NCBI RefSeq assembly: GCF_010731675.1 | Contig: NZ_AP022584.1 | Span: forward strand, 744,001 to 808,000 | Length of the DNA stretch: 64,000 bases | DNA from: Mycobacterium marseillense | GTDB lineage: Bacteria > Actinomycetota > Actinomycetes > Mycobacteriales > Mycobacteriaceae | Direction: 5' to 3' | Shown: piece by piece, positions 5,093-17,635 of the stretch | Layout of the letters: each line of letters begins with the position of its first letter | Numbering within the stretch: position 1 is the first letter of the stretch | The notes under the pieces: model-generated | Seen by the model: the letters and a program-made list of their open reading frames with translations, nothing else | Databases searched by the model: none | Told to the model about the DNA's origin: nothing | Position numbers and translations under genes: made by a program

Positions 5093-7702
5093 GTGAGAAT
5101 TGCTGTCACCGGGGCCAGCGGAGTGCTCGGCCGCGGCCTGGCCATGCGGCTGCTCACCCAGGGCCACGATGTCGTCGGGATCGCCCGCCACCGCCCCGAA
5201 AGCTGGCCGAGCGCAGCCGACTTCGTCGGCGCCGATATCCGTGACGCGGCCGCGGTCAAACGCGCCCTGGCCGGTGCGGATGTGGTCGCGCACTGCGCGT
5301 GGGCGAACAGTCCCGGGCCCGACGAACGCATCAGCCACCAGGTCAACATCGACGGCAGCCGCAACGTGCTCGACGCCATGGCCGAGGCCGGGTCCAGGCG
5401 AATCGTTTTCGCGTCGACCGCGCACGTGTACGGGGGGAGCGGCGCGCCGAAGACCGAACACGACGCCTTGACCCCGGTCAGTGCCGACGGTCAATTCAAC
5501 GCGCGGGTCGAACGCATGCTTGCGGAATCGGGCACGGAATGGATCGCAATCCGCTCCGCGCTGATCCTCGGCCGAAGCGTCGACAACTGGGCGCGCCGGG
5601 TGTTGGCACTACCGGTGTTCCCCGCCCGATCAAGCGATCGCCGCATACAGGTCGTCCACCTCGACGACGCGCTTCGGCTGTTCAACTGCGCGATCGTGGA
5701 CGATGGAATCGACAGCGGCGCAGTCAATCTCGCTGCTCCCGGGGAGGTGACCATCCGGCGGATCGCCGCCGCGCTGCGCCGCCCGGTCGTGCGGCTGGGC
5801 TTCGAGCCGGCGGAATTGCAACGGGCACAGGGTGCTCCACTCATGGACCTCTCGCGGCTCCGCGACAAGTGGGGATTCCGGCCCGCATGGGAATCCGGCG
5901 AATGTATCGACGATTTCGCGCTGGCCGTGCGCGGCCGGGTCACCGTGGGCAAGCGGGTGATATCGCTGCCCTGGCGGTTGGCCAACATCCAGGACCTACC
6001 GTCGGTCGACGCACCTAGCGACGACGGCGTCAAACCCAATTTGGCGGGCGCAGCGGGGGATAACGGGGAATTCGATACACCGATCGACCCCCGCTTTCCC
6101 ACGTTCCTGGCCACGAACCTGTCGGAGGCGCTGCCCGGCCCGTTCTCGCCGGCATCGGCGTCGGCGACGGTCCGGGGACTGCGGGCCAGCGCTGTATGCG
6201 TTGCCGAGCGATTGCGGCCCGGGGGCACGATCCAGCGCGAAATCGCGATGCGCATGGTCGCGGTGTTCGCCCACCGCCTGTACGGCGCGATTACGACCGC
6301 GCACTTCATGGCCGAGACGGTGCCTTTCGTGAAGCCCACGACGGTGGTGAGCAACAGCGGATTCTTCGGCCCCAGCATGGCCGCTCTGCCGATCTTCGGC
6401 GAGGAACATCCGCATTCCGACACCGGCCGAATCCGCAAGCAACTGCGCACCGTCCGCAACATCGGGGTATTCGGCGTCAACCTGATCGGCCTGTCGGCCG
6501 GTGCGGCCATGGACACCCGCGAGTTCGTTGCCGACGTCGATCGTCTCGAGCGCTTGACCGACGGCGATCTCGCCGGAATCGACGAGCGTCGGCTGCTGAG
6601 CCTGATCTCGTTGGCGCGGGACCAGGTGGTGCACGGCTGGGTGCTGGCGGCGGGTTCGTTCCTGCTGTGCGCGGCGTTCAACGTGTTGCTGCGCGGGTTG
6701 TGCGGGCGGGACATCGCCGCGCCCGGCGGGCCGGAATTGGTCAGCGCGCGTTCGGTCGAGGCGATGCAGCGGTTGGTGGTTGCCGCGCAGCGCGATCCCA
6801 AAGTGGCAGCGCTGCTGACAGAACCGGGGGACCGGCTGGACAAGCTCGCCGTCGAGGCACCGGAATTCCACGCCGCGCTGTTCGACGAGCTGGCACTGAT
6901 CGGGCACCGTGGCCCGGCCGAGCTCGAGATGCTGTCCACCAGCTACGCCGACGACCCCGAGCTGCTGGTCCGGATGGTGACCAGAGCGATGAGCGCACCG
7001 TCCGCGTCGCAGCCGCAGCGTCCTCAGATTCCGTTGCATGCCAAGCCAATTGCGGTGCTGGCCACCCAGCAGCTGCGCGACCGTGAGGTCCGCCGCGACA
7101 AGGTGGTGCGCGCGAACTGGGTGCTGCGCACGCTGCTGCGCGAGTACGGGCGCCGGGCGGTCGAGGCCGGGGTCTTCGCTGCCGGCGATGACGTGTTCTA
7201 CCTGCTCGTCGACGAACTGGATGCCTTACCGGCGGATGTGGGCGCGCTGGTGGCCCTGCGCCGGGCCGAACAACGCCGACTGGCCGCGGTGGCGCCGCCG
7301 ACGGTCTTCAGCGGAAGTTGGCAGCCGACCGTTACCTCGTCGGCGGCCCTGGCCAGCGGGGGCACCATGCGCGGTGTCGGCGTGTGCGGGGGACGGGTGC
7401 GCGGCCGGGTGCGCATCGTGCGTCCCGAGACGATTGACGACCTGCAGCCCGGTGAGATCCTCGTCGCCGAGGTCACCGACGTCGGATACACGGCGGCGTT
7501 CTGCTACGCCGCCGCAGTCGTGACCGAACTGGGCGGCCCGATGTCCCACGCCGCGGTGGTGGCCCGCGAATTCGGCTTCCCCTGTGTCGTCGACGTTCAG
7601 GGGGCGACCAAGTCGTTGCCGCCGGGTGCCCTGGTCGAGGTCGATGGCGCGACGGGCGAAATCCACGTTCTGGAGCTCGCCCCGGACGACGCGCTGAGCT
7701 AG
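5093..7702 (+). CDS. Epimerase / PEP-utilising swivel-domain fusion (Rv2047c-like)
   Basis: This 869-residue protein has an N-terminal NAD-dependent epimerase/dehydratase domain (GASGVLGRG at the start, about 1-290). A middle region of unknown fold follows. The C-terminus is a PEP-utilising-enzyme mobile (swivel) domain with GGPMSHAAVVAREFG; in relatives the His of this motif carries the phosphoryl group. No ATP-grasp or PEP-binding barrel is evident, so the phosphoryl chemistry of true PEP synthases is not obviously complete. It starts at a GTG 29 bases after pks12 on the same strand and is probably co-transcribed with it. Size and position match Rv2047c (about 854 residues), a conserved companion of pks12 with unknown function. 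The stop overlaps the convergent P450 stop by four bases. Confidence 0.85.
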   Translation: MRIAVTGASGVLGRGLAMRLLTQGHDVVGIARHRPESWPSAADFVGADIRDAAAVKRALAGADVVAHCAWANSPGPDERISHQVNIDGSRNVLDAMAEAGSRRIVFASTAHVYGGSGAPKTEHDALTPVSADGQFNARVERMLAESGTEWIAIRSALILGRSVDNWARRVLALPVFPARSSDRRIQVVHLDDALRLFNCAIVDDGIDSGAVNLAAPGEVTIRRIAAALRRPVVRLGFEPAELQRAQGAPLMDLSRLRDKWGFRPAWESGECIDDFALAVRGRVTVGKRVISLPWRLANIQDLPSVDAPSDDGVKPNLAGAAGDNGEFDTPIDPRFPTFLATNLSEALPGPFSPASASATVRGLRASAVCVAERLRPGGTIQREIAMRMVAVFAHRLYGAITTAHFMAETVPFVKPTTVVSNSGFFGPSMAALPIFGEEHPHSDTGRIRKQLRTVRNIGVFGVNLIGLSAGAAMDTREFVADVDRLERLTDGDLAGIDERRLLSLISLARDQVVHGWVLAAGSFLLCAAFNVLLRGLCGRDIAAPGGPELVSARSVEAMQRLVVAAQRDPKVAALLTEPGDRLDKLAVEAPEFHAALFDELALIGHRGPAELEMLSTSYADDPELLVRMVTRAMSAPSASQPQRPQIPLHAKPIAVLATQQLRDREVRRDKVVRANWVLRTLLREYGRRAVEAGVFAAGDDVFYLLVDELDALPADVGALVALRRAEQRRLAAVAPPTVFSGSWQPTVTSSAALASGGTMRGVGVCGGRVRGRVRIVRPETIDDLQPGEILVAEVTDVGYTAAFCYAAAVVTELGGPMSHAAVVAREFGFPCVVDVQGATKSLPPGALVEVDGATGEIHVLELAPDDALS

Positions 7703-8925
7703 TCGAACTCCATCTCCAGATTGACCGGCCCGCTCAGCCCCAGCATCGGTTTCCACTGTGCCGTCGCCACGCGGCGCGGGTTGGTCATGCGCCGGGCCAG
7801 GACTTTGAGCGCCCCGGCGAGTTCGGTTCGGGCGAGGTTCGCGCCCAGGCAATAGTGCGCTCCGCCACCGAACGTCAGAATGGGCGGTGGGTCCTCGCGG
7901 GTGATGTCGAACCGGCTCGGGTCGGGATAGACCCCCGGATCGCAGTTGGCGGCAAAGGTATTCACCGAAATGAAGGTACCGGCCGGGAAGGTGTAATCGG
8001 CGAAGGTGACGTCGTCGAGAACGGTGCGCAGGGTGGTACAGACCGCGGGCGAATGGCGCATGCATTCCTCGACGGACGGCATCGCGAGGTCGGGGTTGTC
8101 GCGGAGCATCGCCACCTGGTCGGGGTGATCGCACAGCGCGTGCATGCACGCGGCCAGCTGATTGCGGGTGGTGTCGGTGCCGGCGCTGAGGATGCTGAAC
8201 GCCAGCATGCGCATCTCCGCGTTGCTCAGCCGGTCGCCGTCGTCCTGCGCGCGGATCAGTTCGGAGATCAAGTCGTCGGTCAACCGGCTCCGTCGTTCGG
8301 CGATCATGTCGTCGATGTAGGCGTCGAATTCGTCCCACGCCCGCATCACGATGTGCTGCTCGTTCGCCAGGTCGGAGTCGAACCGCACGATTTTGAAAAT
8401 GTCCTCCGCCCAAAGGGAAAACTGCTCCCAGTCCTCGGGTGGGGCGCCCAACAACGCGCAGATGATCGGGATGGGGTAGGGCCGTGCGATGTCGGTGACG
8501 AAATCGCAGCGGCCGGCCTCGGCGACCTGATCGATCAGCTCGTTGATCACCGTGTCGACGGTGTCTTCCATGCGCGCGGACGCCCGCGGCGTGAAGGCCT
8601 TGGACACCAGACCGCGCAGCCGCCGATGTTCCTCGCCTTCCATGCCGAGGATGGTGCCCAGCACCCGGTCATAGAGCGGGCCGGAGGTGATCCCGCGAGC
8701 CGTCATGTGCATGCCGGGCGGGAAGACGAACCGGGGATCGCGAAGTATCCCTCGGGCGAGTTCGTAGCCGAGCACCTCGGGTCCCAACGGCCCGAGGGCG
8801 ATCGGAGAACGCTTGCGCGCCTCGTGGATCTGGGGGGCGACCTGGTGCACGGTGTCGGTGATGTCGTAGTGCAGCGTGGGGAGGCCGGCGTCGAAGACGC
8901 TGGGTGCTGCGGTGTCGACGGTCAT
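7699..8925 (-). CDS. Cytochrome P450
   Basis: This is a 408-residue soluble bacterial P450. The I-helix has AGTDTT (acid-alcohol pair), the K-helix has ExxR (ECMR), and the haem loop is FGGGAHYCLG with the thiolate Cys at about 359. No signal or membrane anchor is seen. It is the last gene of a minus-strand operon that begins at 16237, 16 bases after another P450. It should be a monooxygenase needing ferredoxin and ferredoxin reductase, and neither is encoded nearby. The substrate cannot be read from the sequence. Neighbouring DapB-like and SDR enzymes suggest stepwise oxidation of a lipid- or terpenoid-like compound, which is inference. Confidence 0.95.
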   Translation of the reverse strand: MTVDTAAPSVFDAGLPTLHYDITDTVHQVAPQIHEARKRSPIALGPLGPEVLGYELARGILRDPRFVFPPGMHMTARGITSGPLYDRVLGTILGMEGEEHRRLRGLVSKAFTPRASARMEDTVDTVINELIDQVAEAGRCDFVTDIARPYPIPIICALLGAPPEDWEQFSLWAEDIFKIVRFDSDLANEQHIVMRAWDEFDAYIDDMIAERRSRLTDDLISELIRAQDDGDRLSNAEMRMLAFSILSAGTDTTRNQLAACMHALCDHPDQVAMLRDNPDLAMPSVEECMRHSPAVCTTLRTVLDDVTFADYTFPAGTFISVNTFAANCDPGVYPDPSRFDITREDPPPILTFGGGAHYCLGANLARTELAGALKVLARRMTNPRRVATAQWKPMLGLSGPVNLEMEFD

Positions 8926-8941: not shown

Positions 8942-11603
<2,662 letters not shown>

Positions 11604-11616
11604 CGGGCCGGCCCCG

Positions 11617-12048
11617 TCATGGATGCGTCGCCGCCTGCGCTTGGCGGGCGAGGCGTTCGTCGTGGATCTTGACGAGCTCGCGGAACCCCAGCCGGTGGTA
11701 CTTCGGTATCGGCTGGATGCCCCAGACGTCCTGCGCGGTGGCCTTGCCCTCGGCGCCCTCCGGGGGCCCGAACGGCGGGTAGGGGTACTTGCACTCCAAG
11801 GTGTCGTTGGAGTACCGGATCTTCAGTAGCTCACTGCAGATCTGCGTGAGGCTCAGCGTCGGGTACCCGTAGTAGACCGCCATGAACGGCAACGTGAAGG
11901 CGCCCTCGATCACCAGCGCCACCAGGCACACCAACACGGCGCGCTTGATCCAGGTGTGCATGCGGGCGTAGTACGGCGTTGTCCCCGGCTCGAGATCGGC
12001 GGCCGGGTCCTTGTCTTCGGTGGCGGACGGTACGGACGGACTAGTCAT
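11617..12048 (-). CDS. One-helix membrane protein of unknown family
   Basis: This 143-residue protein has a charged, proline-rich N-terminus. One strong transmembrane helix follows at about 37-60 (rich in Val, Leu and Ala, then FMAVYYGYP), and then an apparently exposed C-terminal segment with two Cys near 75-90 and a KYPYPPFG stretch. I do not recognise a family. It lies 12 bases downstream of the larger membrane protein (12061-12786) and 13 bases upstream of the DapB-like gene, so it is firmly inside the operon. By position it could be a structural or cofactor-binding subunit of a complex with the two polytopic membrane proteins; that is inference. Confidence 0.8.
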
Positions 12049-12060
12049 GGCACTGCTCCT

Positions 12061-12786
12061 TTAGTCGGAGAAGATTTCGCGATTGACGGTGTGCAGATAG
12101 GGGATGGCCAGGAACGGGGTGATGTAGAAGATGTCGTAGAGCCACCAGCCGATGACTGGGAACACGACGCCGGCGTAGCGCACGTCGGCGAACATGGTCA
12201 TGTTGAACACGTAGGCGGACCAGATCACCACGCCCATCCAGCAGGTGACGACCATCCACTGATGACCCCACCGCTTCATCTGTAAAAACCCGATCGCCGC
12301 GGCCACCCGCATCGAGAAGACCGTGAGGATCAGGCCCGCCACATAGGCTTTCTCGCCCGGGCCCGCCGCGCCCCCGATCCACAGCTCGTTGTAATGCCAG
12401 AAGTAGCCGGCGTCGAACATGTTGCCCCACCCGACCATCAGCACCCTGTTGATCAACGTATGGTTGGCGACCAGGTCCAGCGCCCAGCCCAGACTGTTGA
12501 GCATCCCGTCGATCAGGACCAGGTAGCCGATGAGGGTCACGATCATGGGCCGGACCGACAGCCCGGCGCGCAGCGCCTGGCGCTGCAGCCATACCCCGCG
12601 CATGAAGATGGGGAAGCCGATCAGGCCGGGCGCCCACATGCCCATCAGGGCGGCGCCGACGATCATCCACTTGTCGGCGTGGCGCTGGGCCCGCCGGGAT
12701 TCGTCGTGGTGATCCTCGAGGCTGAGCGACCCGTCGGCACGGTCCGGTCCGGCCCCCGAATTCCGTTTCAGCAGCGGTACATTCAC
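12061..12786 (-). CDS. Polytopic membrane protein, paralog A
   Basis: This is a membrane protein of about 241 residues with roughly five to six hydrophobic helices. It is highly similar to the protein at 15494-16237 over its last 150 residues, including an identical stretch from NMFDAGYFWHYNELW and the end WWLYDIFYITPFLAIPYLHT. Polar residues conserved in both copies and lying in or near helices are Asp104, His109, Asp125, His131, Glu134, Glu145, His175, Asp201, Asp218 and His232, a pattern that could bind metal. I chose the GTG at 12786, which overlaps the preceding stop (GTGA) and gives MNVP, matching MNSP of the paralog; GTGs at 12798 and 12795 are possible. Family not certain; an AveC-type membrane protein or an unrecognised membrane oxidoreductase are options. 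Confidence 0.85.
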   Translation of the reverse strand: MNVPLLKRNSGAGPDRADGSLSLEDHHDESRRAQRHADKWMIVGAALMGMWAPGLIGFPIFMRGVWLQRQALRAGLSVRPMIVTLIGYLVLIDGMLNSLGWALDLVANHTLINRVLMVGWGNMFDAGYFWHYNELWIGGAAGPGEKAYVAGLILTVFSMRVAAAIGFLQMKRWGHQWMVVTCWMGVVIWSAYVFNMTMFADVRYAGVVFPVIGWWLYDIFYITPFLAIPYLHTVNREIFSD

Positions 12787-12911
12787 AGATCCCACCACCC
12801 CCGCGCGAACGACATGTATAGCTGGACGCCGAACATCGCCAGCAGATAGCCGTAGATGAAGATCTGGAAGATGATCAGCGCCCTTTTGCGCTTCTCCTCC
12901 TGTCGGTCCAT
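12783..12911 (-). CDS. Small single-helix membrane peptide (42 aa)
   Basis: This is a 42-codon gene between the MoxR ATPase and membrane protein A. It starts at an ATG preceded by a strong ribosome site (GGGAAAGGAG about 8 bases upstream). A basic N-terminus (MDRQEEKRKR) is followed by one hydrophobic helix of about 20 residues (ALIIFQIFIYGYLLAMFGVQ) and a Trp-rich end. Its stop overlaps the start of the next gene. Good ribosome site, coupling and membrane-helix design support a real gene. Such peptides are common accessory subunits of membrane redox enzymes. No homology is claimed. Confidence 0.72.
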   Translation of the reverse strand: MDRQEEKRKRALIIFQIFIYGYLLAMFGVQLYMSFARGWWDL

Positions 12912-12928
12912 GCCGGTTGCTCCTTTCC

Positions 12929-13723
12929 CTAAGGCGAACTGTTCGAGGTGGCCAGGCTGGCTGCCGCGACTTCGCGCAGACCGTCGGTGACCGCGCCGTC
13001 GGTGCTCAGCGGCGCGAGTATGCACGCGTCGGCGGCGTCCATTTCGGTTGCGCCGGCCGCGATCAGCTGTGCGGCGGTGACCAGCACCCTGGTCGACGGC
13101 GGCTCGAAGTGGAAGGCGTCGTCGGCGGTGCGGATCGCCACCGCGCACCCCACCAACCGCGCGGCGGTGGCCAGGGGGATTCCGGATTCGGCGACGATCA
13201 CGTCGGCCTCGCGGTCGGGCGGCAAATACCGCATCGCCAGCGTGACGAACCGTTGGCGGAACGAGGGTTTGAGTTCTTTCAGTGAGCTGCGATAGGCCGG
13301 GTTGTACGAACACACCAGCATGAACTCGTCGGGGGCCTTCACCACCTCGCCGGCGCGGTCGAGGTACAACGACCGGCGGTGATCGGTGAGCGAATGCAGG
13401 ATCGCCAAGGAGTCGTGGCGAGCCTCGACGACCTCGTCGAGATAGCAGATCGCGCCGGCCTTGACGGCCCGGGTGAGCGGACCGTCGGTCCAGACGACAT
13501 CGCCGCCGGTCACCATGAAGCGGCCGACCAGATCGGAGCTGGTGAGGTCGTCGTGGCAACTGATCGTCACCACCGGCCGCTGCAGCAGTGAGCCCATGTG
13601 CTCGACGAACCGGGTTTTGCCGCACCCGGTGGGACCGGTCAGCATCACCGGCAGACGCCGTAGGAAGGCCTGCTCGAACAGCTGAACTTCGTTGGCGTTG
13701 GCGAAATATGTGTCGGTGGTCAT
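12929..13723 (-). CDS. MoxR-type AAA+ ATPase, NorQ/CbbQ/NirQ-like
   Basis: This 264-residue AAA+ ATPase has Walker A GPTGCGKT at 30-37, Walker B CYLDEV near 93-98, a sensor Asn in CSYNPAY and an Arg-finger region (SFRQRF). It matches the MoxR subfamily that includes NorQ, NirQ and CbbQ. These ATPases work with a VWA partner to remodel a client enzyme, for example inserting the iron of nitric oxide reductase or reactivating Rubisco. The VWA partner is the next gene upstream (24-base gap). A ribosome site GAGGGAAG precedes the ATG. No NorB, Rubisco, CO dehydrogenase or ammonia-monooxygenase subunit is present, so the client is most likely one of the operon's membrane proteins (inference). Confidence 0.92.
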   Translation of the reverse strand: MTTDTYFANANEVQLFEQAFLRRLPVMLTGPTGCGKTRFVEHMGSLLQRPVVTISCHDDLTSSDLVGRFMVTGGDVVWTDGPLTRAVKAGAICYLDEVVEARHDSLAILHSLTDHRRSLYLDRAGEVVKAPDEFMLVCSYNPAYRSSLKELKPSFRQRFVTLAMRYLPPDREADVIVAESGIPLATAARLVGCAVAIRTADDAFHFEPPSTRVLVTAAQLIAAGATEMDAADACILAPLSTDGAVTDGLREVAAASLATSNSSP

Positions 13724-13747
13724 TATCTTCCCTCAGGTGGTCGGCGG

Positions 13748-15274
13748 TCAGGCTGCGACCAGTTCGCGATGGACATGGGCCAATACCCGGGGCAATTCCT
13801 CGATGCGCCGGATCCGTTGCGACCGGCGCGGCCCGAAAACCTCCGGAAGGGGGTCGACCCGGGTCGGGCCGACGCCCACGTAGTACATCGACACCCCAGC
13901 CTCGTTGGCCTCCTCGACGGCGTGCGCGGCATCGGCCCAGGCGTAGCGGCCTTCGTAGCCCTCATCGGAGATCAACCCGTCACCGATGACGATCAGCAGG
14001 CGGCGCTCGGAGGCCTGCGCCAGCAGGCGACTGGTCAAATGGCGCAGTGGCGCACCGAGTCTGGTGTAACCGCGGGTGGACAGGCCCAGCCCGCTCGGCG
14101 GCACGAACCGGCGGTCTTCGAAATCCCTCAGGCAACGCACTTCGACCCGGTGCCGGGTGTTGCCGGTGAACACGAAAACTCCATGGCGCTCACGCGCCAG
14201 CGTCATGGCACGCGAAAGTGCGTCGGCACAAGCCAATTCGAGCTGGAAGACGCGGCCGCCGTGCACCCCCAACGACGAGCTGCCGTCGAGCAGCACCGCG
14301 GTGGTGACGTCGCGGCTGCTGGGCAGCAGGTCGCGGAACACCCTCGGCTCCTTGGCCTCGCCGGTCGTCAGGTCGATGTAGTGGTTGACGTATTGGTCGA
14401 CGTCGAGGTCGGAGCCGTCTTCGAGTCGATTGGTCATCGCACGGTGGGTGTGTTCTTCGAACCACTTGCGGACGTCGACGGCCACCGGCACGGGCGGGCG
14501 GAGGTGTCGGCCGTCGGCGTGTTCTATCACGGCGACGTGGTCGTGCATGAATCGCTGTGTCCACATGTTCCATTCGGGATAGGGGATCCCGGGCCGGTGC
14601 TGGGGTGTGACGTCGAGATCGTTGTCCTGCGGCCGGCTCGGCGGCGGCAGGTTCGGATTGCGAACGCCCCCATCACCGCCGACCGGAACCGAGTACGGCC
14701 GCGGAAGGCGCTTTTGCGTGGTGGTCCACGGCATCCGGCCAAAGCTGCGTCGTAGCTTGTCGGTCAATCCCTGCGGTGCCGTGTAGGCCGACGGCAAGGT
14801 GCCCAGTAGCGGAGGGACCGTCAATTCCTGGCCGGTGGCCGCCAATGCGATTGCCCGGTCGAGCATCTGGGTGCCGTCCATGTCAGCGGCCTCGGCGTGG
14901 ACGTGGAGGAGTAGCCCTTGGACATCGGGGAGCAGGCCGGGCCACCGCGACGCGATCCACCCGAGGGCGACGCCACCTTCGACGAGCGCGAGCGCGCGCA
15001 GTTCACGGGCGGACAGCTCGCCCAGACGGTAGTCGGTGACGCGCTCCTTCGATGGCGAACATTGCAGGGCCACGCCGCACGTCAGGGTTCTGCGCGTCCA
15101 CTCGGCGGCGGGGTAGGGGACGTGGACGAACGTGAGCGTCGCGTTCAGGCCGAAACCTCGGCGCTCACCGGTGATGAGCCGCACGCCTTCGCGGCGCTGC
15201 TCGCTCAGCGCGACCGCCGTCACCGCGCAACTGCGTTCCAGCGCCATGGCATGGCCGTCGGAATGCTCAGTCAT
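13748..15274 (-). CDS. VWA-domain protein, NorD/CbbO-like partner of MoxR
   Basis: This 508-residue protein has a variable N-terminal half and a C-terminal von Willebrand A domain. The metal-ion-dependent adhesion site DGSSS sits at Asp330, Ser332 and Ser334, with a later Thr in the TRGYTRLG loop and an Asp in IVIGDGL. This layout is that of NorD/CbbO proteins, which pair with NorQ/CbbQ ATPases as substrate adaptors. It lies directly upstream of the ATPase gene and downstream of a 34-residue membrane peptide. The VWA site probably binds Mg and contacts an acidic residue of the ATPase ring or client, as known for CbbQO. The client here is unknown. Confidence 0.9.
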   Translation of the reverse strand: MTEHSDGHAMALERSCAVTAVALSEQRREGVRLITGERRGFGLNATLTFVHVPYPAAEWTRRTLTCGVALQCSPSKERVTDYRLGELSARELRALALVEGGVALGWIASRWPGLLPDVQGLLLHVHAEAADMDGTQMLDRAIALAATGQELTVPPLLGTLPSAYTAPQGLTDKLRRSFGRMPWTTTQKRLPRPYSVPVGGDGGVRNPNLPPPSRPQDNDLDVTPQHRPGIPYPEWNMWTQRFMHDHVAVIEHADGRHLRPPVPVAVDVRKWFEEHTHRAMTNRLEDGSDLDVDQYVNHYIDLTTGEAKEPRVFRDLLPSSRDVTTAVLLDGSSSLGVHGGRVFQLELACADALSRAMTLARERHGVFVFTGNTRHRVEVRCLRDFEDRRFVPPSGLGLSTRGYTRLGAPLRHLTSRLLAQASERRLLIVIGDGLISDEGYEGRYAWADAAHAVEEANEAGVSMYYVGVGPTRVDPLPEVFGPRRSQRIRRIEELPRVLAHVHRELVAA

Positions 15275-15305
15275 CGGTCCAATCCCGCGCTCCCCGGACC
15301 CCGGC

Positions 15306-15410
15306 TCAGAACGTGCCGATGTTGGAGAACAGCCAGTACCAGAACCAGATGATCAGTCCGGTGCCGCCCCACGCGGCGACATAGCGAAGGATCTCCCACA
15401 GATAGCCCAC
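15306..15410 (-). CDS. Small single-helix membrane peptide (34 aa)
   Basis: This is a 34-codon gene starting at GTG with a near-perfect ribosome site (GAGGAGGT, seven bases upstream). The peptide is almost entirely one membrane helix, very rich in Trp and aromatic residues (VGYLWEILRYVAAWGG, then LIIWFWYWLF). It stands 31 bases before the VWA gene and 83 bases after membrane protein B. The operon thus has one tiny membrane peptide near each of the two large membrane proteins (the other is at 12783-12911), which argues for a paired structural role. Too short for family assignment. Confidence 0.68.
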   Translation of the reverse strand: MGYLWEILRYVAAWGGTGLIIWFWYWLFSNIGTF

Positions 15411-15493
15411 GATGTGACCTCCTCGGTGACGTGGTCAGTTGATGCGTGCTGAGTTGTCGAGAACTCTCGCGAACCGAAGGCGCGTAGAGCATT

Positions 15494-16237
15494 TCAGTCG
15501 GAGAAGAGTTCGCGGTTGACGGTGTGCAGATAGGGGATGGCCAGGAACGGGGTGATGTAGAAGATGTCGTAGAGCCACCAGCCGACGACCGGCAGCACGA
15601 CGCCGGCAAAGCGCACATCGGCGAACATGGTCATGTTGAACACGTAGGTAATCCAGATGACCACGCCCATCCAGCAGGTGATCACCATCCACTGGTGGCC
15701 CCACCGTTTCATCTGCAGAAAGCCGATGGCGGCGGCGATCCGCATGGTGAAAACGGTCAGGATCAGGCCGACCTCCAAGGCCTTTTCGCCGGGGCCCGCC
15801 GCGCCCCCGACCCACAGCTCGTTGTAGTGCCAGAAGTAGCCGGCATCGAACATGTTGCCCCAGCCGTTGAGTAGTACGCGGGCCAGAATGGTGTGGTTGG
15901 CCACCAGGTCGAGCGCCCACCCGACGGTGTTGATCGCGGCGTCGATGATCACGAGGTAACCGAGCAGCGTGACGAGCATCGGCCGCACCGAGAGGCCGTC
16001 ACGCTGGGCGCGGCGCAGCAACCGCACGCCCCACAAGAACAGCGGCAGACCGAAGATGCCAAGGGCAGCGGTGCCGATCAGCAGGCTGCCGGAGATGAGC
16101 CATTTGTCGGCCCGGCGCTGCGCGAGCTGTGAGCGTTCCATGTGCTCGTCGATGGCCAGACCCGGCGGGGCGGAGCCCGGTGATCGCGTGGCTGCACCTA
16201 TCCCCGAATCGCGCTGATGCAGCTTCGGCGAATTCAC
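15494..16237 (-). CDS. Polytopic membrane protein, paralog B (first gene of operon)
   Basis: This is a 247-residue membrane protein, GTG start with GGGGAGGG ribosome site, and the first gene of the minus-strand operon. It is a paralog of the protein at 12061-12786. The N-terminal 45 residues differ, while the remainder is mostly identical, with conserved Asp110, His115, Asp131, His137, Glu140, Glu151, His181, Asp207, Asp224 and His238. The strongest block is GWGNMFDAGYFWHYNELW followed by GGAAGPGEK. Retention of both copies in one operon suggests a heterodimer or two related substrates. The D-His spacing does not match the copper ligands of PmoC/AmoC. A promoter and operator lie just upstream (16279-16304). 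Confidence 0.86.
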   Translation of the reverse strand: MNSPKLHQRDSGIGAATRSPGSAPPGLAIDEHMERSQLAQRRADKWLISGSLLIGTAALGIFGLPLFLWGVRLLRRAQRDGLSVRPMLVTLLGYLVIIDAAINTVGWALDLVANHTILARVLLNGWGNMFDAGYFWHYNELWVGGAAGPGEKALEVGLILTVFTMRIAAAIGFLQMKRWGHQWMVITCWMGVVIWITYVFNMTMFADVRFAGVVLPVVGWWLYDIFYITPFLAIPYLHTVNRELFSD

Positions 16238-16531: not shown

Positions 16532-17635
16532 ATGACGCTCAAGCCGACGGCCGAGAAGAAGTATCGCGTAATCCAATGGGGCGTCGGCAATGTCGGGACG
16601 ATAGCGCTGCGCCATTTCGTGCACAACCCGGCCTACGAACTGGTCGGAGTCCTGTGCAATCGTCCGGAAAAGGTCGGCAAGGACGCCGGTGAGCTCTGCG
16701 GCAAACCGCCGACCGGCGTGCGGGCCACCACTGACAAGGCTGCCATCGAGGCACTCGACGCCGACTGCGTGTTCTATGCGCCGTTGTGGTCCGACCCCGA
16801 CGAGGTGTGCCGCTTACTGCGCGGCGGTAAGAATGTCGTCGCGTCGGGTGGGGCGTGGTGGTATCGGACCGAGCACAGTCAGGCGGACATCGACAAGATC
16901 GACGCCGCGTGCCACGAGGGTGGCACGTCGTTTCATGCCGGTGGGGTGAACCCGGGGTTCGCCGGGGACCTGCTCGTCCTGACGCTGGCCCGAATCGTCA
17001 GTCAGATCGACACGATTCACATCTACGAGGTGGTGAACTTCGGGCGCGACACCCTGAAGTACCTGTTCGAGATGGGAATGGGAAGCGATCCGGTCGGGTT
17101 TGAGGATGGCCCGAATCTGTTGGGGCAGGCGTGGCCGTTGTTCGCCCAGTCGATGGCAATGGTCGTGGAGGGGATGGGTAAAACGGTCGAGAAGTACACG
17201 ACCGAGGTGGAACTCGGGACTGCCACGCGCGACATCCCCTTCGAGGGAGGGGAGACCAGCGACATGCCGGGCTTCAAGGGTGTGATCAAAAAGGGAACTG
17301 TCGCTCGGCAGCACCACAAGTGGACGGCATGGATGGACGGCAGGCCCCTCATCGTCTTTCACGAGATCTACACGATGGACACCTTCGACGCCATTGAACC
17401 GCAGGAGGATTGGCCCCAGCATTACCACTACCGGATCGTGATCGAGGGCGATTCCTCCACGGAGCTGATCCTGCAGGGCGCACAGGACCCCGACGGCGGC
17501 TACGCGCTGCCCGGATACACCTGGACCGCGATGGGCCCCGCGAACGCCATTCCCGCGGTCTGCGACGCCCCACCCGGGTTCATGTCCCACCGGGAACTCG
17601 GACTGATGCCGCTGCGCGGCGTCATACGGCCCTAG
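16532..17635 (+). CDS. DapB-like NAD(P)-dependent dehydrogenase
   Basis: This is a 367-residue member of the same DapB-like family as the genes at 10554 and 19303, with Rossmann motif GVGNVGTIA near residue 17 and the shared VNPGF segment. The frame is open to 16319, but the ATG at 16532 follows an AAAGGAG ribosome site and starts just before the Rossmann strand, so the shorter form is preferred. It is divergent from the eleven-gene operon and separated from it by a 294-base region with two operator copies. That region contains no convincing gene. Function: oxidation or reduction of an unknown substrate, probably in the same pathway. Confidence 0.88.
   Translation: MTLKPTAEKKYRVIQWGVGNVGTIALRHFVHNPAYELVGVLCNRPEKVGKDAGELCGKPPTGVRATTDKAAIEALDADCVFYAPLWSDPDEVCRLLRGGKNVVASGGAWWYRTEHSQADIDKIDAACHEGGTSFHAGGVNPGFAGDLLVLTLARIVSQIDTIHIYEVVNFGRDTLKYLFEMGMGSDPVGFEDGPNLLGQAWPLFAQSMAMVVEGMGKTVEKYTTEVELGTATRDIPFEGGETSDMPGFKGVIKKGTVARQHHKWTAWMDGRPLIVFHEIYTMDTFDAIEPQEDWPQHYHYRIVIEGDSSTELILQGAQDPDGGYALPGYTWTAMGPANAIPAVCDAPPGFMSHRELGLMPLRGVIRP

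Follow-up and report, generated by a model that had tools for sequence, protein, structure and literature searches.

A duplicated mycobacterial membrane protein with small partner proteins as the probable client of a NorQ/NorD-type pair

In this study, we analyzed a 64,000-nucleotide stretch (the window) of the 5.5 Mb genome of Mycobacterium marseillense (NZ_AP022584.1, positions 744,001 to 808,000), in which seven tightly packed open reading frames (ORFs) encode two related polytopic membrane proteins (A and B), three small proteins (mp34, mp42, and oneTM143), a MoxR ATPase and a VWA protein. MoxR and VWA are, as classified by their sequences, a NorQ/NorD-type pair, and A/B are very probably its client. 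We regard as an evenly balanced proposition the fuller statement that these parts form a lipid-transforming membrane complex working by acid-base chemistry and assembled by the pair; the acid-base chemistry itself is proposed a shade more cautiously. The analysis gives a name to an uncharacterised membrane module of mycobacteria and relatives, which consists of tiny helices and a duplicated protein whose predicted shape recalls sterol isomerases, and which is almost always accompanied by such an ATP-driven pair.

The helper pair and its association with A/B

All seven ORFs of the operon described in a previous sequence-only reading were present at the places given and on the minus strand. Their order from 5' to 3' is A, mp34, VWA, MoxR, mp42, B, and oneTM143, followed by a DapB-like gene at 11603; spacers of 12-83 bases lie between them, and the single overlap, of 16 bases, joins mp42 and B. 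MoxR matched AAA_5 (PF07728, E 1.5e-36) and CbbQ_C (PF08406, E 6.3e-21), both above cut-off, and its best solved relative was NorQ (E 1e-75). VWA aligned with NorD over residues 214-507 (E 3e-30), with LLDGSSS, GYTRLGA, and VIGDG of the metal ion-dependent adhesion site (MIDAS) in register, and the Pfam VWA profile stayed below cut-off (20.9 vs 23.8 bits). At the level of sequence, this alignment covers the finger-extension region, PdNorD 403-448, described in a section of PMC13036017. The NorQ/NorD-type assignment made earlier is thus borne out.

The pair resembles NorQ/NorD of cytochrome-c nitric oxide reductase (cNOR) in its ATPase domains, its MIDAS and the membrane client encoded alongside, and the nor operon likewise has small membrane proteins, norE and norF (in the relevant part of PMC13036017). 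In contrast, this VWA is shorter than NorD (508 against 638 and 646 residues), NorB and NorC are absent, A/B have no COX1 domain, and the small proteins go with the client instead of with the chaperone pair. None of the four COX1-family matches of the genome lies in the window.

Of 201 genomes sampled from the family, 19 have A, and exactly these 19 also have a close VWA (E 5e-147 or better). Seventeen of the 19 loci examined around A hold mp34, VWA, MoxR, mp42, and oneTM143; the cassette of L033 breaks off where its contig ends, and L042 has no VWA and MoxR, its genome carrying a full cassette elsewhere (L041). The best 80 named GTDB loci of 337 relatives, a set that overlaps with the family loci (e.g., L031/L109 and L033/L122), comprised 76 complete ones with two A/B copies and four that reach a contig end. 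These counts support the earlier suggestion that A/B are the client, and a neighborhood survey, proposed as its check, recovered A/B together with MoxR-VWA in all 19 family genomes and in 76 of these 80 loci. The nearest named relatives of A belong to Mycobacterium species (up to 96% identical), and in two genomes of another family (L067 and L068) the set is complete, with A present once. Outside the family A was rare, with 16 of 200 genomes in the order sample, all inside the family, 19 of 296 in the class sample and 6 of 296 in the phylum sample, three samples that repeat many of the same genomes. Many mycobacteria, environmental and non-tuberculous, carry the module, as do some of their relatives. 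Among the matches listed in the open-licence PMC literature, no paper dealt with A/B, nor with AveC together with MoxR.

Six distant loci (L050, L069, L070, L071, L072, and L165) encode a relative, A', that is 33-39% identical. VWA and MoxR stand beside A' in L071 and L165 (35-39% identity). The other four weigh against A/B as client, since they have no MoxR-VWA beside A': L050 and L069 contain neither the pair nor a stand-alone AAA ATPase in the fetched stretch, and L070 (9633-10502) and L072 (8154-8990) have a stand-alone AAA ATPase gene right after A'. The latter ATPases fall short of the equivalog cut-off for FtsH and match its profile (E 8e-107 and 3e-102) in the AAA part alone, at about positions 153-407 of 598. 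Homologs of A/B found mostly without the pair would have spoken against the link between them; such a pattern is seen in four of the six distant loci and not among close relatives. Distant A' turned up in one of 199 genomes of the class of G757, the already known one, and in three of five in the family of G388, all already known. In addition, L042 and L074 hold mp34-mp42-A-oneTM143 without helpers in the 17-18 kb fetched, and a separate contig of the L074 genome carries two more A copies, whose distance of 3.3 kb resembles the spacing in the usual cassette.

Small proteins and the acidic tail

Median pN/pS against the window copy was 0.11 for mp34 (92 loci) and 0.23 for mp42 (98 loci), which demonstrates purifying selection, and ribosome-binding-like sequences, as judged by eye, precede mp34, mp42, and oneTM143. 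On both grounds mp34 and mp42 are not chance ORFs. The two had been described as single-helix peptides; they stand as genuine ORFs, and the membrane helix of the Trp-rich mp34 is only probable because its Kyte-Doolittle peak of 1.18 over 19 residues falls under the threshold of 1.4. The protein oneTM143, to which two cysteines had been ascribed, has three (Cys 41, 71, and 86).

The 1722 six-frame ORFs of the six distant loci were searched with profiles of the three small proteins up to E 1, and the oneTM143 and mp34 profiles matched exclusively ORFs near A'. The helix region of oneTM143 gave weak matches beside A' in L072 (4e-6), L070 (1e-5), L050 (0.0017), L069 (0.046), and L165 (0.22), with none in L071; mp34 matched in L069 (2e-6), L071 (0.02), and L165 (0.09), with none in L050, L070, and L072. 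In L069 both profiles hit one and the same ORF, a fusion. A single weak match was obtained with mp42, in L071 (E 0.17), 355 bases away. Taken with L042 and L074, these matches near A' suggest that the small proteins go with A, the pair being an accessory; the view that the micro-peptides are parts of the client module agrees with this, as they accompany A also where the helper pair is missing.

The C-terminal tail of A/B (codons 15494-15529 in A and 12061-12096 in B) ends in EIFSD in 75 and in EIFTD in 26 of the 120 close matches listed. The two distant loci with MoxR-VWA have ELWSEE (L071) and EQFADVR (L165). In the clade whose viewed loci lack NorQD, an RQWNR-like tail occurs in L050 and in most of P0128-P0175 (neighborhoods of the latter not viewed), RRDLWKP in L070 and L072 (the acid kept at 243), and KRQFVSN in L069. 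The tail is thus acidic in relatives linked to NorQ/NorD and mostly basic in others, and the helper-free L042 and L074 have an acidic tail all the same. For two acidic residues on the surface of cNOR, contact with the NorD MIDAS or its linker is presumed (passages of PMC13036017 and PMC9976466). By analogy, and from few lineages, we advance the hypothesis that the tail, E-[IL]-[FW]-x-[DE], is a handle for the NorD-type MIDAS.

Fold of A/B and competing readings

A and B share 73% identity overall and 127 of their last 150 residues, so that they are strongly alike, though not near-identical as had been stated. In a tree built from 89 sequences, the A copies (36) and the B copies (36) formed two groups (support 0.997 and 0.33) inside a group of 72 (0.999), a pattern as from one duplication. 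Both copies are retained in all 36 of these loci, with records from Mycobacterium, Mycolicibacterium, Aldersonia, and Nocardia; the remaining lineages in the tree have a single copy at each locus, G031 being the exception with a tandem pair of its own.

The four best structural matches of the predicted A model were EBP and TMEM97 proteins, well above the rest, and Foldseek alone was not significant. From this model, A/B quite likely have an EXPERA (EBP/TMEM97)-like fold. Sequence searches gave nothing comparable: Pfam and NCBIfam scans of A, B, and the small proteins and a PDB search with A had no match; the EXPERA/EBP profile PF05241 did not match P0003 up to E 1 and reached one of 58 members at E 0.16; A against bacterial EBP-like proteins was not significant, and the EBP-like protein of the same genome itself found nothing in PDB by sequence. 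A/B further differ from EBP and TMEM97 (the sigma-2 receptor) in having DAGY in place of the EXPERA motif DxRY, and in being a paralogue pair with micro-subunits and AAA+ helpers. D99/N103-D131-E151 are invariant in A/B, and the acids sit in predicted helices, which suggests that they are catalytic, though they may also serve in ligand binding.

Based on these observations, A, B, mp34, mp42, and oneTM143 would form one dedicated membrane complex, in which the small proteins pack as helical subunits round a predicted EXPERA-like four-helix core of A/B (about residues 81-244), itself extended by additional N-terminal helices. From the cytosol, if the topology is read correctly, their own NorQ/NorD-type pair would assemble or activate this complex, and by analogy with NorQD it may pull on the client by means of the VWA MIDAS, with the acidic tail as handle. 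Once finished, the complex would use acid-base chemistry at D99/N103-D131-E151 to transform a lipid-like substrate, such as a terpenoid, a steroid, or an acyl compound, a reaction presumably placed in a pathway with P450s and DapB-like and short-chain dehydrogenase/reductase (SDR) oxidoreductases.

A different reading makes A/B a membrane metalloenzyme, an oxygenase or similar, into which the pair inserts metal as iron is inserted into nitric oxide reductase; in cNOR, FeB cannot be inserted without NorQD, according to portions of PMC9976466 and PMC13036017. P450 genes are frequent neighbors, and the histidines that had suggested metal ligands are indeed conserved in the close clade (H115, H137, and H238 in 42 of 42 rows, H181 in 40 of 42). 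However, their conservation ends there: 16 distant rows kept H115 in one, H137 in three, H181 in none and H238 in two, and although both have MoxR-VWA, L071 has lost all four and L165, read by eye, three, keeping the one at the H115 place. The predicted fold also points elsewhere, and EBP and TMEM97 are not known to need metal. A scan of all Pfam-A found in A/B no AmoC/PmoC or other membrane monooxygenase family and no COX1 domain, the AmoC/PmoC fold was not among the structural matches listed for A, and the profile comparison suggested earlier, with AveC, AmoC/PmoC, and other families, produced no convincing match. A His-ligated oxygenase thus fits poorly, and the carboxylates and Asn at D99/N103/D131/E151 could still hold a metal; as a whole, the metalloenzyme is unlikely, though it deserves consideration. 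The second option of the earlier reading, a dehydratase or a similar reaction, is still compatible with these data.

Less likely again is that A/B are a non-enzyme factor for lipid binding, trafficking, or assembly, with MoxR/VWA remodeling a complex that includes A/B, for example with P450s. TMEM97, which shares the predicted fold, is a binding protein and not a known enzyme, and P450-like matches are common near A (64 and 48 of the 80 loci under a loose limit of E 0.05; clusters in 40, 23, and 20 of 110 loci). Yet the P450 neighbors vary while the core genes are constant, and the invariant acids speak for catalysis, with the reservation on ligand binding made above. It is very improbable that the pair lies here by chance and has as its client a nitric oxide reductase encoded at another place of the genome. 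Two COX1 proteins of quinol-reductase size (776 and 774 residues; L176 and L177) do exist in the genome, with no MoxR or VWA homologue at E 1e-5 within the 17-18 kb fetched around either, but in 19 of 19 genomes the pair co-occurs exactly with A, and it stands beside A' even at 35-39% identity, which largely contradicts this idea. The least credible alternative is a MoxR-VWA conflict or defence system: MoxR is often mentioned in the consulted part of a paper on NTP-dependent conflict systems (PMC7159879), but PADLOC gave no match for A, B, VWA, and oneTM143, its matches for MoxR were just two of AAA type, both weak (best E 2e-5), and the neighbors are metabolic.

AveC_like proteins and neighboring genes

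The 201 genomes contain 30 further NorD-type matches (about 30% identity), 29 of which have an AveC_like (PF17198) gene at a distance of 1.5-2.6 kb; conversely, 31 of 62 AveC_like matches have such a VWA within 6 kb. The exception, G099 C22 (L197:5550-7576), has a partial MoxR match beside its NorD-type VWA and no AveC_like gene found nearby. The M. marseillense genome itself has AveC_like-MoxR-VWA-P450 in L171 (7319-12286) and VWA-MoxR-binding protein-AveC_like-P450 in L172 (8254-13401), and L173, L174, and L175 show further NorQ/NorD-type pairs beside AveC_like proteins. Such loci (L171-L173) are like ours in joining a polytopic membrane protein, a NorQ/NorD-type pair and P450s. However, AveC_like is another Pfam family; mp34, mp42, and oneTM143 had no match at E 1e-5 in these loci, and the AveC_like model (pLDDT 80.5) had no EBP-like match among its best 50 listed, an absence that proves nothing, so there is no sign of a common fold for the two client families. 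Homology of A/B to AveC_like was considered and rejected (no profile match; hhalign P 0.07 and 0.06); a local match of 15-17 columns, placing D99xxxN103 onto AveC DPLxN, was not significant. Streptomyces AveC is described as an enzyme of spiroketalisation and dehydration (in the part of PMC13303154 consulted), and in the mycobacterial passage of PMC5819568 the spirocyclase AveC protein is named only as an indel marker.

NorQ/NorD-type pairs would thereby gain two new candidate membrane client families, one of them EXPERA-like. Tentatively, and with more doubt than confidence, actinobacterial NorQ/NorD-type machines may be a general assembly device for membrane lipid-transforming enzymes and not metal inserters only, having a branch for a heteromeric EXPERA-fold enzyme (micro-subunits and a MIDAS-bound acidic tail) and an AveC_like sister branch. 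The choice between metal insertion only and broader membrane-complex assembly by such machines becomes testable, and expression of A/B or AveC_like proteins elsewhere may require the matching pair.

Features of the window are given in Table 1. Around A/B, a DapB3 match was present in 73 of 80 loci, SDRs were frequent, and coenzyme A (CoA) ligases occurred in some loci. Together with the P450s, these DapB-like, SDR, and CoA ligase neighbors suggest that the A/B locus belongs to a pathway for a lipid-like compound. The CYP143-kind P450 of the window matches PDB 8amo (E 3e-166).

Table 1. Coordinates of the module and of its surrounding genes in the window.
Feature	Position	Strand	Description
A	15494..16237	-	polytopic membrane protein, 247 residues, EXPERA-like (EBP/TMEM97-like) predicted fold
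mp34	15306..15410	-	aromatic-rich putative membrane peptide, 34 residues; pN/pS 0.11
VWA	13748..15274	-	NorD-type, 508 residues, MIDAS motif DxSxS-T-D; NorD E 3e-30
MoxR	12929..13723	-	NorQ/CbbQ-type AAA+ ATPase, 264 residues; AAA_5, CbbQ_C; NorQ E 1e-75
mp42	12783..12911	-	putative single-helix peptide, 42 residues; overlaps B start
B	12061..12798	-	A paralogue, 245 residues
oneTM143	11617..12048	-	putative one-helix subunit, 143 residues, three Cys
DapB/diaminopentanoate-dehydrogenase-like oxidoreductase	10554..11603	-	context; operon, downstream
Cytochrome P450, CYP143 kind	8942..10300 (region searched)	-	context; match starts at residue 67, about 10100
Cytochrome P450, second	7699..8925	-	context
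DapB-like oxidoreductase, divergent	16532..17635	+	context

Further genes were noted around these loci. Several loci with A or A', or near them, share a family of membrane proteins that matches DUF4386 weakly and under its cut-off: L072 (10206-10937) and also L034, L070, L113, L123, and L163. Rieske-oxygenase-like and aldehyde-dehydrogenase-like ORFs, named by eye, lie close to the VWA of L197, and an EBP-like gene split in two abutting ORFs stands beside AveC_like genes in G167 (L174:14966-15687). In 35 of 110 loci (cluster 13, e.g., L101:18498-20606), a gene near A encodes a large protein that contains a PEP-utilising mobile domain.
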